This document shows, piece after piece, positions 1-4,990 of a stretch of 64,000 nt of DNA (position 1 is its first letter; every line of letters begins with the position of its first letter). Source of the DNA: Aequitasia blattaphilus (GTDB lineage: Bacteria; Bacillota; Clostridia; Lachnospirales; Lachnospiraceae); assembly GCF_024721305.1 (NCBI RefSeq), contig NZ_JAMXOD010000003.1:167957-231956 (forward strand), in the 5' to 3' direction. Under the pieces are notes generated by a model. It did no database searches and was not told the DNA's origin. It saw only the letters and a program-made list of their open reading frames with translations. Made by a program: the position numbers and the translations under genes.

Positions 1-448
1 GATGTGAATCAACCAAAGAAATCCTGTCAAACACCAAGTATTCCGGCAACATTAAGACTTGAAAAGGCATTAACATTAACACAATATATACAAAGTAAAT
101 TACCTTTTTTAAAGGAAACGTATATTTCGCCAATCCCCAGGCCGCTGGAATCGCAATTATCATTTGCCCAACTAGAATTACCATAACAATTTTTATAGAA
201 TTCCAAAACATCACAAAAAAAGATGGGGCATCTACTAGTAATTCAATGTATGATTTCAAAGAAAAATTCCACGGAAATAATCCCCAACTCGCATAACCTT
301 CGCCATCTATAAGAACCGGCGATAAATAACTATATAACATATCGCTATTCATGAAAGATCCCACTATCAAAAAAACAACCGGGTAAGCTGCTATACCCGC
401 AAGTAAACACAATATAAACAAAATCACTTTATTCTTCATCTCTGTCAT
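1..448 (-). CDS. carbohydrate ABC transporter permease, MalG type (3' end cut by window)
   Basis: About 149 codons are visible, read from the ATG at 448 towards the left edge with no stop. The protein opens with a hydrophobic segment (VILFILCLLAGIAAYPVVF), followed by an external loop with LFPWNFSLKSYIELL, and further membrane segments with IAIPAAWGLAKYTFPLKK and LMLMPFQVLMLPEYLVF. These are typical of the second permease of CUT1 sugar importers, which forms the membrane channel with a MalF-type partner. The start overlaps the stop of the upstream permease in an ATGA arrangement, so the two are translationally coupled. The EAA loop that contacts the ATPase would lie beyond the edge. The family is clear; the substrate is not. 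Confidence 0.85.
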   Translation of the reverse strand, partial: MTEMKNKVILFILCLLAGIAAYPVVFLIVGSFMNSDMLYSYLSPVLIDGEGYASWGLFPWNFSLKSYIELLVDAPSFFVMFWNSIKIVMVILVGQMIIAIPAAWGLAKYTFPLKKVIYFVYIVLMLMPFQVLMLPEYLVFDRISLVDSH

Positions 449-1302
449 TCCTTCGTGTTCCAACATTTATATAGTGCCACGATTGGAACCAGAAGTATTA
501 TTGATAAGAGCGTTGCTCCTGCTGACATTTTCTCAATATCTAAATCTCGAAACCAATTATTAAATAGATGTTGCAGCATATATATACTCTTATTGGGATA
601 ATCACCAGCTAATAGATACGCTTCCCTGAATATTTTAAACGAATTAATAATAGATATTACCATTGTGACAAATAGTGTTGACCTTAAATTTGGCAGTGTA
701 ATATAGCAAAAGCATTCCTTGTCCCCTGCACCATCAACACGAGCCGCCTCATATATTTGCTTTGGAATAGTCGAGAGACCTGCAAGCCATAATACAATAC
801 TATATCCCAAATTTTTCCACAAATAACTGAACACTAAAATTCCAAATGAATATTTACTATTTATCCAATCAACGCCTTTAATACTAAATGTATTGAATAT
901 CCCATTAAGAAATCCCTGATCATCAAATAATAGTCTCCACAATAATACAATAGAAACTACCGGTATGGATAAAGGAAACAGAAAAATACTTTTAAACGTA
1001 TTTGTTATTGCAGCTACATGTTCATGAAGATAAACAGCAATTATTAACGAAAGAACAAGCAATATAGGTATACATGTAACAATAAATTTCAGACTATTAT
1101 ACGCTGCTAATTGAAAAGAATCATTAAGAATCACTCTCTTGAAATTGTCAAATCCTACGAACTTTCTGTTCCAAACATTTATAAATGCGTAGAAAATAAC
1201 ATTTATGTATGGGATAACTAATATACATATTACACCGATTAGACTCGGTAACATAAAAATAAGTCCGACCGTTTTCTTCCTTTTACCATTTCTACGATTC
1301 AT
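445..1302 (-). CDS. sugar ABC transporter permease, MalF type
   Basis: A permease of about 285 residues with six predicted membrane helices. The cytoplasmic EAA loop is visible as EAARVDGAGDKECFCYITLP near residue 190, the docking site for the ABC ATPase. An in-frame TTG lies two codons upstream, but the ATG at 1302 is the better start. The start codon lies inside the 3' end of an ABC ATPase remnant in another frame, and the stop overlaps the next permease (ATGA). The C-terminus is normal. The neighbouring solute-binding protein and second permease make a sugar- or peptide-type importer likely. No importer ATPase gene is present; CUT1 systems often use a shared MsmX-type ATPase encoded elsewhere. 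Confidence 0.85.
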   Translation of the reverse strand: MNRRNGKRKKTVGLIFMLPSLIGVICILVIPYINVIFYAFINVWNRKFVGFDNFKRVILNDSFQLAAYNSLKFIVTCIPILLVLSLIIAVYLHEHVAAITNTFKSIFLFPLSIPVVSIVLLWRLLFDDQGFLNGIFNTFSIKGVDWINSKYSFGILVFSYLWKNLGYSIVLWLAGLSTIPKQIYEAARVDGAGDKECFCYITLPNLRSTLFVTMVISIINSFKIFREAYLLAGDYPNKSIYMLQHLFNNWFRDLDIEKMSAGATLLSIILLVPIVALYKCWNTKE

Positions 1303-1396
1303 TTCCAACTATTCTTCCCTTTTTTAATGTTATAGTCCTGTCACACATATCTACAATTTTCTTGTTATGGGAAATAACAATACATATTTTTTTCCT
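1292..1396 (-). pseudogene. 3' remnant of an ABC transporter ATPase gene
   Basis: Reading the minus strand between the solute-binding protein and the first permease, 34 codons give RKKICIVISHNKKIVDMCD followed by RTITLKKGRIVGNES and a TAG stop. This has the H-loop (SHN in place of the usual THD), the following CDR and the terminal strand with GRIV, which are hallmarks of the last part of an ABC ATPase, particularly the LolD/MacB and bacteriocin-export class. The Walker A, signature and Walker B parts are absent; the frame closes upstream inside the end of the solute-binding gene. The stop lies just inside the permease gene, so the remnant looks like the genuine 3' end of a gene once coupled to it. 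A chance match is possible but unlikely. Confidence 0.6.
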
Positions 1397-3654
1397 TATT
1401 CTTGATTGTATATATTGATTTTTTCCATTATTTCACTAACTACAGAGCTAACAGCTATATCTCCAGCTAATGAATTTCCCGCACTCTCCAATATTACTTT
1501 CTTTATGTATGAGTCTCTTAATATCGGTTTATTTAACTCTTCAAAATGACTTACAAATTTATCCGCTTCACTTTCTGTATAAGGATGTATTTGGAATCCA
1601 GTAGTTTCGTCAATATTCGTATAAACATTGTGTCTATCATCTTGTAAACAAACTTTTAGTGCTTCTTTATTATTAGGAAACCCTGTAATATTATCGTTAC
1701 TTTGAACCTTTTTCGACATAGTAAAATTTATAAATTTTTTTGCCAATTCGCCTTTCTTACTTGCTGCGCTAATGCCTAAAATACCTGCTGGAATATATAC
1801 TTTCTCACTATTGTCGCTAAGCAAACAATATTCTTTTGATTCATCAGCATTAGTAATTTCATTTAATATTGGGATAAGCTTCACAAAATCAACATAGTCA
1901 AATGTAATCGCCCTATCATCTGCAACCCAGTTAAAGTAATTAACTGTTACATAGACACCATTCTTCTCTGCACTATTGTTTCTCCAACTATCACTTAATT
2001 CCGGATATCCACATTTACTATATAATGTTCTAATACAAGAAATATATTCAGTTAATAGTTTTTCCTCAATTTCAGTGTCTGTTCCTATCATTGGTTCAAC
2101 ATATGAAGAATAAAGAAATTCCATCATCTGCATGAATTCTTCTTCACTATAGTTCATTTGATTGTCTACTTTTTTGATGTACTCTTCAATAGCCGAAATA
2201 CTATCGCTACTCTCCCCAAGCCCTACTTCTCCCTCTAATGCAAGTAATACAATTCTACTCGGCACTGCTAAGATTTCGTCTTCAGAGGATTTGAATTGCT
2301 CAACCACATTTGCAAAATATTTATCAGCTTTGATAGTTTCAGCCAAATCCATTAGCAGCCCTTTCTCCATATAGGAGGTATATGGCAAATCATCTAGGAC
2401 TAATATATCAGGCCCCTTGTTGGTCATTATTTCTGTGTTTAAATTTTTAATTACATCTGTTTCTGTAGCAATATTACCATCTGATATTCCCACCTTGTAG
2501 TTAACCTTAATATTCGGATATTCTATTTCAAAAGCATTTATTGCCAATTCAACATTTTGGTTATTATAAAGCGAATATATTGTTAGTTCTTCTTTTACAC
2601 TCTCCTCATCTTTTTCCGTTGTATCCATCCAATACATAGAATATTGATTAGATTGCATGTTTATTGCTATTAGATATAAATCTTTGTTATATACCTCAGC
2701 ATCCAAAATATATTGCTGCAGTAGCTCTCCTGCACCCTCTCCCTTCAAATCACAAACTTGCTCTACGCCATTCTCAGCATTCCTAAACAAGCCGAAACTA
2801 TTGAACACATATAATTGTTCTCTTTCATGTTTAAGAACGATATTGCTTTCAAATGAAGGAATGGATTCCTTCACATATGTATTATTCAAACGATCTATTA
2901 ACTCATCATCTTCATTTTCTTCCCCAGTATTCATATCCCATGATAATATTTCATGATTAGTCGCCATTAAAATCATATCATTGTATTGAGAACAACCTAA
3001 AATATATCCATGGTTGTTTTCATAGGACTTGTTAATTTCTCCATTTTCTATGTTTATATAGTGTAAATCAAAATTCTCATCCATTGCCAAAAGATTCCCG
3101 TCATCAGAAAATTCCGTATTCAAAATATAATTGACTGCACTTTCTGGCAACCATTCAAATTCTTCATTATGCTCCCTTTTTGCCTTGTCTATCTCTGGCA
3201 ATTTCAAATTAACAGGCACTATTTTACTCTCCTTCATATAATAGTATTTAGCGCCTTCAACGCCTCCATCCTCATTATATTCTAGAGACTTCCAAAAAAT
3301 TTCGTTACTTTTCGAAGCATATGCTCCCACTTTTTCATTTTCGGCTTTTTCAAACAAATCTGTGGAATTGTAAGCTTCTTCCCACGTATTCCCTTTATCA
3401 CCTGAATCATAAATTGCAACCTCATTACCTATAGTCGCTACTAGCCGCAATATTCCGTCTTCCATAACAACCATATCAAAGACCGTGTCAATATTTTCCG
3501 GTAACAATAATTCTTTAATTTCTTCACTTCTATCTATTTCTTTCGATGCATTCTCTTTATTAGCCTCATCAAAACCAGTACATCCTGACAACATTCCACA
3601 TACTGCCAAAATAACACTTATTATTAGTGCTAACCTTGTTTTTGTAACATGCAT
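1396..3654 (-). CDS. lipoprotein with Asp-box N-terminal half fused to a sugar-type solute-binding domain
   Basis: This 752-residue protein is far longer than a usual 420-residue solute-binding protein. Residues 7-25 form a lipoprotein signal with lipobox LSGC (Cys25). Residues 55-360 look like a beta-rich, propeller-like region; an Asp-box (SGDKGNTW, residues 84-91) is visible, as in sialidase-type and photosystem-assembly propellers. From about residue 365 (ELTIYSLYNNQNVELAINAF) the protein is a family-1 extracellular solute-binding domain ending in EKINIYNQE, a usual end for that family. It precedes two MalFG-type permeases. It would sit outside the membrane and bind a ligand of unknown type. 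The combined architecture is unusual. A propeller is inferred from one clear Asp-box and should be treated as tentative. Confidence 0.7.
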   Translation of the reverse strand: MHVTKTRLALIISVILAVCGMLSGCTGFDEANKENASKEIDRSEEIKELLLPENIDTVFDMVVMEDGILRLVATIGNEVAIYDSGDKGNTWEEAYNSTDLFEKAENEKVGAYASKSNEIFWKSLEYNEDGGVEGAKYYYMKESKIVPVNLKLPEIDKAKREHNEEFEWLPESAVNYILNTEFSDDGNLLAMDENFDLHYINIENGEINKSYENNHGYILGCSQYNDMILMATNHEILSWDMNTGEENEDDELIDRLNNTYVKESIPSFESNIVLKHEREQLYVFNSFGLFRNAENGVEQVCDLKGEGAGELLQQYILDAEVYNKDLYLIAINMQSNQYSMYWMDTTEKDEESVKEELTIYSLYNNQNVELAINAFEIEYPNIKVNYKVGISDGNIATETDVIKNLNTEIMTNKGPDILVLDDLPYTSYMEKGLLMDLAETIKADKYFANVVEQFKSSEDEILAVPSRIVLLALEGEVGLGESSDSISAIEEYIKKVDNQMNYSEEEFMQMMEFLYSSYVEPMIGTDTEIEEKLLTEYISCIRTLYSKCGYPELSDSWRNNSAEKNGVYVTVNYFNWVADDRAITFDYVDFVKLIPILNEITNADESKEYCLLSDNSEKVYIPAGILGISAASKKGELAKKFINFTMSKKVQSNDNITGFPNNKEALKVCLQDDRHNVYTNIDETTGFQIHPYTESEADKFVSHFEELNKPILRDSYIKKVILESAGNSLAGDIAVSSVVSEIMEKINIYNQE

Positions 3655-3736: not shown

Positions 3737-3913
3737 CTAGACTCCGTACATATACATTCTGCCATCTGCAAATGGACCGCCACCTCTGTATGCTTCCCAT
3801 ACTTTCCAGCCTGAACTGTAATAATGTGTTATTCCACCTTTGCTTAAATAGTATTGTCTGCAATGATAGCCACCATTAAGCTTATTACCGCTCTTGAATA
3901 TATGTCTTTCTTT
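3737..3913 (-). pseudogene. C-terminal remnant of a small Gly/Tyr/Trp-rich peptide gene (lactococcin-972-like?)
   Basis: An open frame of 58 codons follows an in-frame TAA but has no ATG, GTG or TTG near its beginning. It reads GNKLNGGYHCRQYYLSKGG, then ITHYYSSGWKVWEAYRGGG, then PFADGRMYMYGV and a TAG stop. The paired tyrosines, the VWxxY/A element and the Tyr-rich end recall the C-terminal half of lactococcin-972-family peptides, but the match is loose and made by eye. A strong promoter stands directly upstream, so the signal-peptide half seems to have been deleted between promoter and remnant. It could instead be an unrelated secreted peptide. Confidence 0.35.
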
Positions 3914-4054: not shown

Positions 4055-4990
4055 TTATTCACCTAATATTAATTTAGCTCCACCGTAAATACCTGCATCA
4101 TTTCCCAGCTCAGCAAGAGCAAACTTCAATTCTGTATTGGCAAAGAAGGCAACTGCTTCAAAGTGTTTCTTCACATATTGAATCAATATCTCTCCTGCCT
4201 TCGAAACACCTCCGCCGATTACAACCACGGCAGGGTCTACTACCACACAGAGGCTTGCAATGGCGTCTCCCAGTATTCCAGAGAACTCTTCCACAATCTC
4301 TGTGGCTATAGCATCTCCTTCCTTTAAACAGTCGAATACGGACTTTGCAGAGACCTCACGTTCTCTTAGTAAGGAAGGTGCACCGTCCTTTTCCAATCTT
4401 TTTCTTGCCAGTCTTGCAATTCCAGTTGCAGATGCGTACTGTTCAAGACATCCTTTTCTTCCGCAACCACACACTGTTTCTTCCTGCATATTCACACGCA
4501 TATGCCCGATTTCTCCTCCGGCACCATGTTCTCCCACAAGAGGGCGTCCATTAATAATAATACCTCCGCCGACACCAGTTCCCAGTGTGATAACAATAAG
4601 ATTTTCATAGCCGGCTCCACCGCCAACCCACATTTCTCCAAGGGCAGCTATATTCGCATCATTTCCTACTTTTACAGGTAAGTCTAAACCTTCTTCCAAT
4701 TCCAGTTTTATATCTTTGAAATCCCATCCTAGATTTGCAGTGCTTTTCACTCGTCCAAATTTATCAACTGGTCCTGGAATTCCTACCCCTAAACCAATTA
4801 TCATGCTTTTATCCAATTTATTTTTGTTTATATTTTCTTTGATGGTTCCACATACATCTGGAAGTATTGCTTCACCTTTGTTTTCTGTATTTGTAACAAT
4901 TTCCCACTTCTCAATTAGTTTGCCTTCATCTGTAAAAAGACCTAATTTCACAGTCGTTCCACCGATGTCTACACCATAACAGTATTTCAT
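4055..4990 (-). CDS. glcK: ROK-family glucokinase
   Basis: The 311-residue protein phosphorylates glucose with ATP in the cytoplasm. The N-terminal phosphate-binding motif is DIGGTTVKLG (residues 8-17). The glucose-binding stretch HGAGGEIGHM and the ROK zinc motif CGCGRKGCLEQYAS follow near the middle, with three cysteines and the His of GHM as zinc ligands. Length and motifs match bacterial glucokinases of the ROK family; transcriptional-repressor ROK members carry an N-terminal helix-turn-helix, which is absent here. It lies 9 bases after hprK, joining a glycolytic kinase to the carbon-catabolite sensor in one operon, and is the last gene before the terminator. Confidence 0.92.
   Translation of the reverse strand: MKYCYGVDIGGTTVKLGLFTDEGKLIEKWEIVTNTENKGEAILPDVCGTIKENINKNKLDKSMIIGLGVGIPGPVDKFGRVKSTANLGWDFKDIKLELEEGLDLPVKVGNDANIAALGEMWVGGGAGYENLIVITLGTGVGGGIIINGRPLVGEHGAGGEIGHMRVNMQEETVCGCGRKGCLEQYASATGIARLARKRLEKDGAPSLLREREVSAKSVFDCLKEGDAIATEIVEEFSGILGDAIASLCVVVDPAVVVIGGGVSKAGEILIQYVKKHFEAVAFFANTELKFALAELGNDAGIYGGAKLILGE

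Follow-up and report, generated by a model that had tools for sequence, protein, structure and literature searches.

Remnant of an ABC ATPase in a recurring Lachnospiraceae operon that combines MalF/G-type permeases with HlyD-type and MacB-like genes

Background

C39 peptidase-containing ABC exporters (PCATs) are described as cutting off the secretion signal of peptides and exporting them (PMC6959990). A multi-component ABC immunity transporter of circular and leaderless enterocins, Mr10EFGH, is reported to serve both self-immunity and export (PMC10598978). For sugar importers of the CUT1 type, multitask ATPases such as MsmX can serve several importers (PMC7658222).

In the present study we describe a locus of Aequitasia blattaphilus at one end of a stretch of 64,000 nt (the window; C23:167957-231956 of genome G000), where the end of an ABC ATPase stands between the gene of a solute-binding protein (SBP) and genes of MalF/G-type permeases. 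PCATs (TIGR01193; PF03412, PF00664 and PF00005) resemble the exporters found beside the related operons L113 and L115, which hold C39, membrane and NBD domains and both score under the TIGR01193 cut-off, and peptide ORFs lie upstream of the exporters in L113 and L179. Unlike ordinary PCATs, the window keeps only the NBD end, the operon-linked NBDs extend only 20-26 residues past the H-loop, less than in the other C39-labelled exporters that were measured, and the operon-linked exporters stand together with MalF/G permeases and an SBP. In Mr10EFGH, too, an adaptor, an ATPase and a permease accompany a bacteriocin, a likeness of plan and not of compared sequences; the passages of PMC10598978 consulted describe neither an SBP nor MalF/G permeases. 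The CUT1 importers with shared MsmX are matched by an operon of SBP and two MalF/G-type permeases, usually without an ATPase, but differ in that the SBP of the operon has about 750 residues and that HlyD-type and MacB-like genes are its regular neighbours.

Results

The relic frame and its surroundings

The features of the locus are given below in positions of the window.

1-466, minus strand: 5' part of permease 2, called MalG-type by its place in the operon and not by family scan
445-1308, minus strand: permease 1, MalF/UgpA/GlcT-like (BPD_transp_1 E 1e-14)
1292-1294, minus strand: stop codon TAG of the relic
1295-1396, minus strand: C-terminal relic of an ATPase, from H-loop to C-terminus, 34 codons (profile and similarity matches)
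1295-1432, minus strand: stop-to-stop frame around the relic, 46 aa
1396-3654, minus strand: SBP, a 752-aa lipoprotein-like solute-binding protein (SBP_bac_1 E 2e-6, 28.5 bits, cut-off 26)
3740-3913, minus strand: open frame without start codon, NKLNGG followed by a Gly/Tyr/Trp-rich stretch, possible relic of a double-glycine-leader peptide
4055-4990, minus strand: ROK-type kinase gene, right border of the island, adjoining a PBP1A-like gene in both congeners
past the window start on contig C23 (L030 7198-10423): rest of permease 2, then an HlyD-type adaptor (430 aa), then a 354-aa weakly MacB-like membrane protein

The frame 1292-1396 translates to 34 residues and a stop, and contains what we take to be the H-loop (ISHN), CDR and GRIV of an ABC ATPase. 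It is read in a frame of its own that starts with the final base of the SBP stop codon, and it overlaps the permease-1 ORF by 17 nt. Pfam gave no match at E<=1 for either the 43-aa or the 34-aa version of the relic peptide. The 43-aa version was matched by 16 NCBIfam families, all of them ABC transporters with the NBD end aligned; the best was TIGR03375 (E 1.7e-4, 20 bits), and all matches lay far under the curated cut-offs. Searched against its own genome, it found 22 matching places at E<=10, itself included. Further, a control tail HMM was built from 45 NBDs, none of them from loci that had been retrieved through their similarity to the relic tail. Over the 1804 stop-to-stop frames (at least 20 aa) of the window it ranked the relic first at E 2.8e-8, with the second at 0.41.

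The H-loop region and the strand that follows it are thus present by both NCBIfam and the tail HMM, and Walker A, signature and Walker B are absent from the relic, the 46-aa stop-to-stop frame covering the NBD end only. Judged by its sequence the frame can securely be assigned to the C-terminal end of an ABC ATPase, and it is a remnant and not a working gene. The earlier note had read it as such a tail in a frame of its own with its stop inside the first permease gene, and had held that a lack of ABC ATPase similarity in profile searches would refute this; translation, NCBIfam and tail HMM bear its reading out even though Pfam is silent, and the TAG does lie within 445-1308. No close tail relative was found in 299 genomes of the family, the best outside match having 55% identity over 33 residues. 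By itself the relic is a case of ordinary decay, and it is the operon around it that is of interest.

The SBP C-terminus carries two columns that are invariant across 39 aligned SBPs (Y749 and E752). The end of the SBP is thus complete, and the relic begins directly behind an intact gene. On its other side, a likely ribosome-binding site (AAGGGA, read by eye) lies within the relic DNA 7 nt before the TTG of permease 1, and the relic may persist because this site is inside it.

The island, whose outermost parts are the peptide-like frame and the 354-aa membrane protein, sits between two genes provisionally named PBP1A-like and ROK-type. In the congeners G001 and G002 these two genes are directly adjacent, so that the island is missing at the site in both. 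Its GC content is 0.329, as against 0.414 for the PBP1A-like and 0.418 for the ROK-type gene. As it is A+T-rich and missing from both congeners, the island was probably acquired horizontally, loss from both congeners being the less probable alternative. The core genes (SBP, permeases, adaptor and MacB-like) are all open. In NCBIfam permease 1 matched GlcT (E 3.5e-25), UgpA (7e-22) and MalF (1.1e-11), all under cut-off. The adaptor matched RND_mfp under its cut-off (E 3.5e-16, 59.1 bits, cut-off 94.9), Biotin_lipoyl barely over it (22.3 against 22.1 bits) and HlyD_3 under it. The match of the 354-aa protein to the MacB periplasmic core was weak (MacB_PCD E 0.0054, 17.5 bits, under the cut-off of 27).

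A recurring five-gene operon

Permease 1 was found at E<=1e-50 in 112 of 398 genomes of the family, its own included. Among 80 loci fetched with it, the order SBP, permease 1, permease 2, HlyD-type adaptor, MacB-like gene is unbroken in 63; several of the remaining 17 end at contig borders and others are rearranged. At 51 of the 80 the opposite strand encodes a response regulator and a histidine kinase. When the window is counted in, an SBP lies upstream of permease 1 at 76 of 81 loci. The gap between the two is 87 nt in the window and exceeds 300 nt only in L132 (1032) and in the rearranged L172 (3518). None of the 75 other loci with an SBP upstream of permease 1 has an intact ATPase between them. 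An ATPase in this place is thus exceptional, and the relic needs a special source. The earlier note had asked for relatives with an ATPase at this position, and these were found in part: L115 has an intact PCAT before permease 1 and L132 a broken C39 piece, but an intact ATPase between SBP and permease 1 occurs at none of the 75 loci.

An MsmX-type ATPase stands in or beside the operon in L145, L172, L179, L192 and L283 (typed by sequence similarity and length, not by family scan). The own genome has MsmX-like ATPases elsewhere, the best (C2:758-1855) with 52% identity to that of L145.

We found no paper, for the terms searched, on an SBP and MalF/G permeases combined with adaptor and MacB-like genes; as far as the literature search reached, the function of this operon is undescribed.

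Several loci show features of their own. Tandem SBP-type ORFs precede permease 1 in L128 (three), L131 (three) and L148 (four). In L119 a 222-aa ABC ATPase and two ORFs without a Pfam match over cut-off lie directly before the SBP (L119:1029-3304), another transporter type beside the same operon. A plasmid search with the permease gave one distant match at E<=1e-40 (43.7% identity). L155 and L187, two operon copies, come from a single record whose title names a plasmid of Sporofaciens musculi.

C39 exporters among related operons

A tblastn search with four C39 queries (E<=1e-4) covered 139 loci, six of them without a permease-1 match, after an earlier round of 119. It detected C39 peptidase sequence at four distinct loci, L113, L115, L132 and L179; L201 appeared as a further row but repeats the L113 record and is not counted. 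The locus of the window (L030) gave no match in this search.

In L113, from Eubacterium ramulus, a peptide ORF, a PCAT and two lipoprotein-like ORFs precede the SBP operon. In L115 an intact PCAT ends directly before permease 1, and the contig stops ahead of any SBP. In L132 a frameshifted C39 sequence starts directly behind the SBP stop, between SBP and permease 1 (PF03412 E 0.0023 and 6.6e-15). In L179 the peptide ORF is followed by a PCAT in split form and by an SBP of only 424 aa; behind the permeases come a short HlyD-type ORF and the MsmX-type ATPase, and the MacB-like gene is missing from its expected place. It should be noted that the exporter precedes the SBP in L113 and L179 and does not follow it.

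One of the lipoprotein-like ORFs of L113 (L113:4865-5740) is a DUF6273 protein (PF19789 E 1.9e-26). Others beside the exporter or its remnant, within L113:4042-5740 and L132:2699-3337, look similar to DUF6273 by eye.

A strong PCAT match (E<=1e-90) on the same contig as a listed permease 1 occurred in one of 398 genomes of the family, with at most two candidates scored per genome. Among 363 genomes of the order 13 matched the L132 permease at E<=1e-85, the genome of the window included. The flanks of these 13 (eight newly fetched, with L030, L033, L040, L044 and L208) and of 12 further permease-1 places held no new C39 locus. L208 has, immediately upstream of its SBP, two ORFs for ABC exporters that lack C39 (596 and 572 aa; L208:10719-14224).

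The first tree of both permeases comprised 102 distinct loci after removal of eight duplicates; in six loci, stops within the aligned part were replaced by X. In FastTree the window grouped with L113, L115 and L132 (support 0.807) and, when L179 and L145 were added, at 0.918. With 20 more loci entered (117 distinct) the same two groupings reached 0.887 and 0.893, and IQ-TREE on a 60-taxon subset gave them SH-aLRT/UFBoot values of 91.3/86 and 61.9/81. Branches are long, and the clades have moderate support. The six-member clade of the window includes all four C39-linked loci, but not L208.

Length and score of the tail

Lengths from the H-loop His to the C-terminus were taken with regular expressions on 53 NBDs, proteins missed by the expressions being uncounted. 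The window has 25 residues, L113 and L115 have 20 each and L179 has 26, the L113 value being measured on the same record as L219. The other C39-labelled exporters have at least 42, the LolD/FtsE-type ATPases, provisionally labelled so from their sequences, 22-39, and four MsmX-type proteins 130-178. The 572-aa exporter of L208, which lacks C39, is equally short with 22.

In alignment scores against the tail the LolD/FtsE type came out highest (best 81, mean 63.3, n=16), although 12 of these 16 had been fetched by similarity to the tail, a bias in their favour. The operon PCATs followed (best 67, mean 62, n=3), then the other PCATs (best 64, mean 52.9, n=25), the L208 exporter (46) and, lowest, the MsmX type (17-37). 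By its sequence alone the tail does not separate a PCAT from a LolD-type ATPase.

The frame upstream of the SBP

The startless frame 3740-3913 lies upstream of the SBP and contains 41% G+Y+W, a share reached by none of 20,000 random stop-free 51-mers, for a statistic picked after seeing the peptide. No homologue was found in NCBIfam or Pfam, and no outside match better than E 0.1 among 61 relatives; in 398 genomes of the family the best outside match (E 0.0027) had an internal stop. Its likeness to the peptides of L113 and L179 is not beyond chance, as 0.36 and 0.275 of shuffles score equally high. From its composition we would tentatively suggest that it may have encoded the mature peptide of a gene since lost. 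A promoter before this frame was considered and dropped: a perfect TTGACA stands there, yet the consensus scan listed none. The scan counted 11 promoter-like sites in the region, against 15.7 in shuffles.

L113 and L179 each have, upstream of the exporter, a 79-aa ORF that encodes a double-glycine leader. The L179 leader matched TIGR01847 above its cut-off (E 0.0034) and the L113 leader no family; in L115 and L132 contig ends cut the region where a peptide ORF could stand. The 81 loci hold seven double-glycine ORFs with a ribosome-binding site, three of them outside larger ORFs (L113, L179 and L126). The one in L126, 34 aa and about 0.4 kb behind the MacB-like gene, is taken for chance. A literature search for an E. 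ramulus bacteriocin gave nothing among the matches listed.

Discussion

We suggest that the lost ATPase was most likely the NBD of a PCAT, or the separate NBD of a split one. The nearest permease relatives, the six-member clade, hold all C39 loci found. The position fits, as the PCAT of L115 stands directly before permease 1 and the C39 piece of L132 behind the SBP, and the stretch from H-loop to end is short (25 residues against 20-26 in the operon exporters and at least 42 in other C39-labelled ones). Further, double-glycine ORFs accompany the exporter in L113 and L179 and the window has its G/Y/W-rich startless frame, and the relic is an ABC NBD end in an A+T-rich block missing from both congeners. 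We hold this origin to be likely and no higher, because LolD/FtsE-type ATPases and operon exporters are inseparable by score and because of the non-C39 exporters of L208. The lack of a close tail relative in the 299 genomes, the rarity of strong PCAT matches on a contig with permease 1, the moderate support of the clade, the lack of a homologue for the startless frame and the position of the exporter ahead of the SBP in L113 and L179 also speak against it. The earlier note had named the LolD/MacB or the bacteriocin-export class; context favours the latter, but the tail itself is indecisive.

A separate LolD/MacB-type ATPase is an alternative source of the relic; together with the HlyD-type adaptor it would have powered the MacB-like protein of this operon in a MacAB-like pump. 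The operon does have a putative adaptor and a protein with a MacB_PCD match, though under cut-off, the 25-residue tail lies within the LolD/FtsE range, and the top tail scores belong to this class. We nevertheless regard this source as unlikely, since no intact ATPase stands between SBP and permease 1 in the 75 other loci, the nearest permease relatives have C39 exporters instead, and the LolD-type ATPase of L192 lies downstream and adjoins a 787-aa membrane protein of its own.

An ABC exporter with membrane domain and NBD but without C39, as found before the SBP in L208, is a much less probable source. Such exporters are among the NCBIfam matches of the relic and the 572-aa one of L208 ends equally early, but L208 lies outside the clade of the window and its tail scores below those of the operon PCATs.

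MalF/G importers need an ATPase of the MalK/MsmX type, and five related operons have one. That the relic is the end of such an ATPase is nonetheless highly improbable, and we dropped this origin on length, the relic lacking the C-terminal OB-type extension (25 residues past the H-loop against 130-178), and on the lowest scores of all; MsmX-like ATPases are moreover encoded elsewhere in the own genome. On this point the earlier note was right that the fragment is not from a CUT1 ATPase. Its proposal that the lost ATPase had been coupled to the MalF/G permeases was not supported, as the ATPases of the nearest relatives belong to C39 exporters with a membrane domain of their own and the five operons carry a separate MsmX-type ATPase; the lost ATPase probably did not power these permeases. 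The mixture of importer and exporter parts that the note remarked on is real in that SBP and MalF/G genes lie beside HlyD-type and MacB-like ones, but the reason differs from the one it gave.

A chance open frame, for which only shortness and the silence of Pfam speak, has next to no probability and was dropped on the tail HMM, which placed the relic far ahead of all other frames of the window.

Returning to the PCAT origin, we infer not only the class of the ATPase but also an original gene order, a peptide with its function and a role for the core genes. A peptide cluster would have been acquired horizontally, with a PCAT gene behind the SBP and ahead of permease 1, in the order peptide, SBP, PCAT, permease 1, permease 2, HlyD-type adaptor, MacB-like protein, an order intact at no locus seen. 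In the intact cluster the PCAT would remove the double-glycine leader and secrete the peptide, which would be small and perhaps antibacterial; the HlyD-type protein may have served as its adaptor. Once outside the cell, this peptide or a related ligand may be dealt with by SBP, MalF/G permeases and MacB-like protein, either in self-protection or for uptake, the permeases being driven by an MsmX-type ATPase encoded in the operon or elsewhere. In the window, exporter and peptide leader would have been lost by deletion, with the other genes still open.

Further, we speculate, with more doubt than confidence, that the block of SBP, MalF, MalG, HlyD-type adaptor and MacB-like protein, in many cases accompanied by a divergent two-component system of its own, might be an undescribed hybrid envelope system recognising secreted peptides, for protection or sensing. 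One branch would keep peptide and C39 exporter, and the window would be a former producer, an orphan immunity island with only the protective part.

Conclusions

Starting from the relic we came upon a widespread operon in which permeases like those of sugar importers stand together with exporter-type adaptor and MacB-like genes; in one branch, a double-glycine peptide and its exporter are associated with them. Should the core serve to protect against peptides or to sense them, it would be a new form of bacteriocin immunity or sensing in Clostridia that is open to testing, and the window would be a case in which production was lost and the rest retained.
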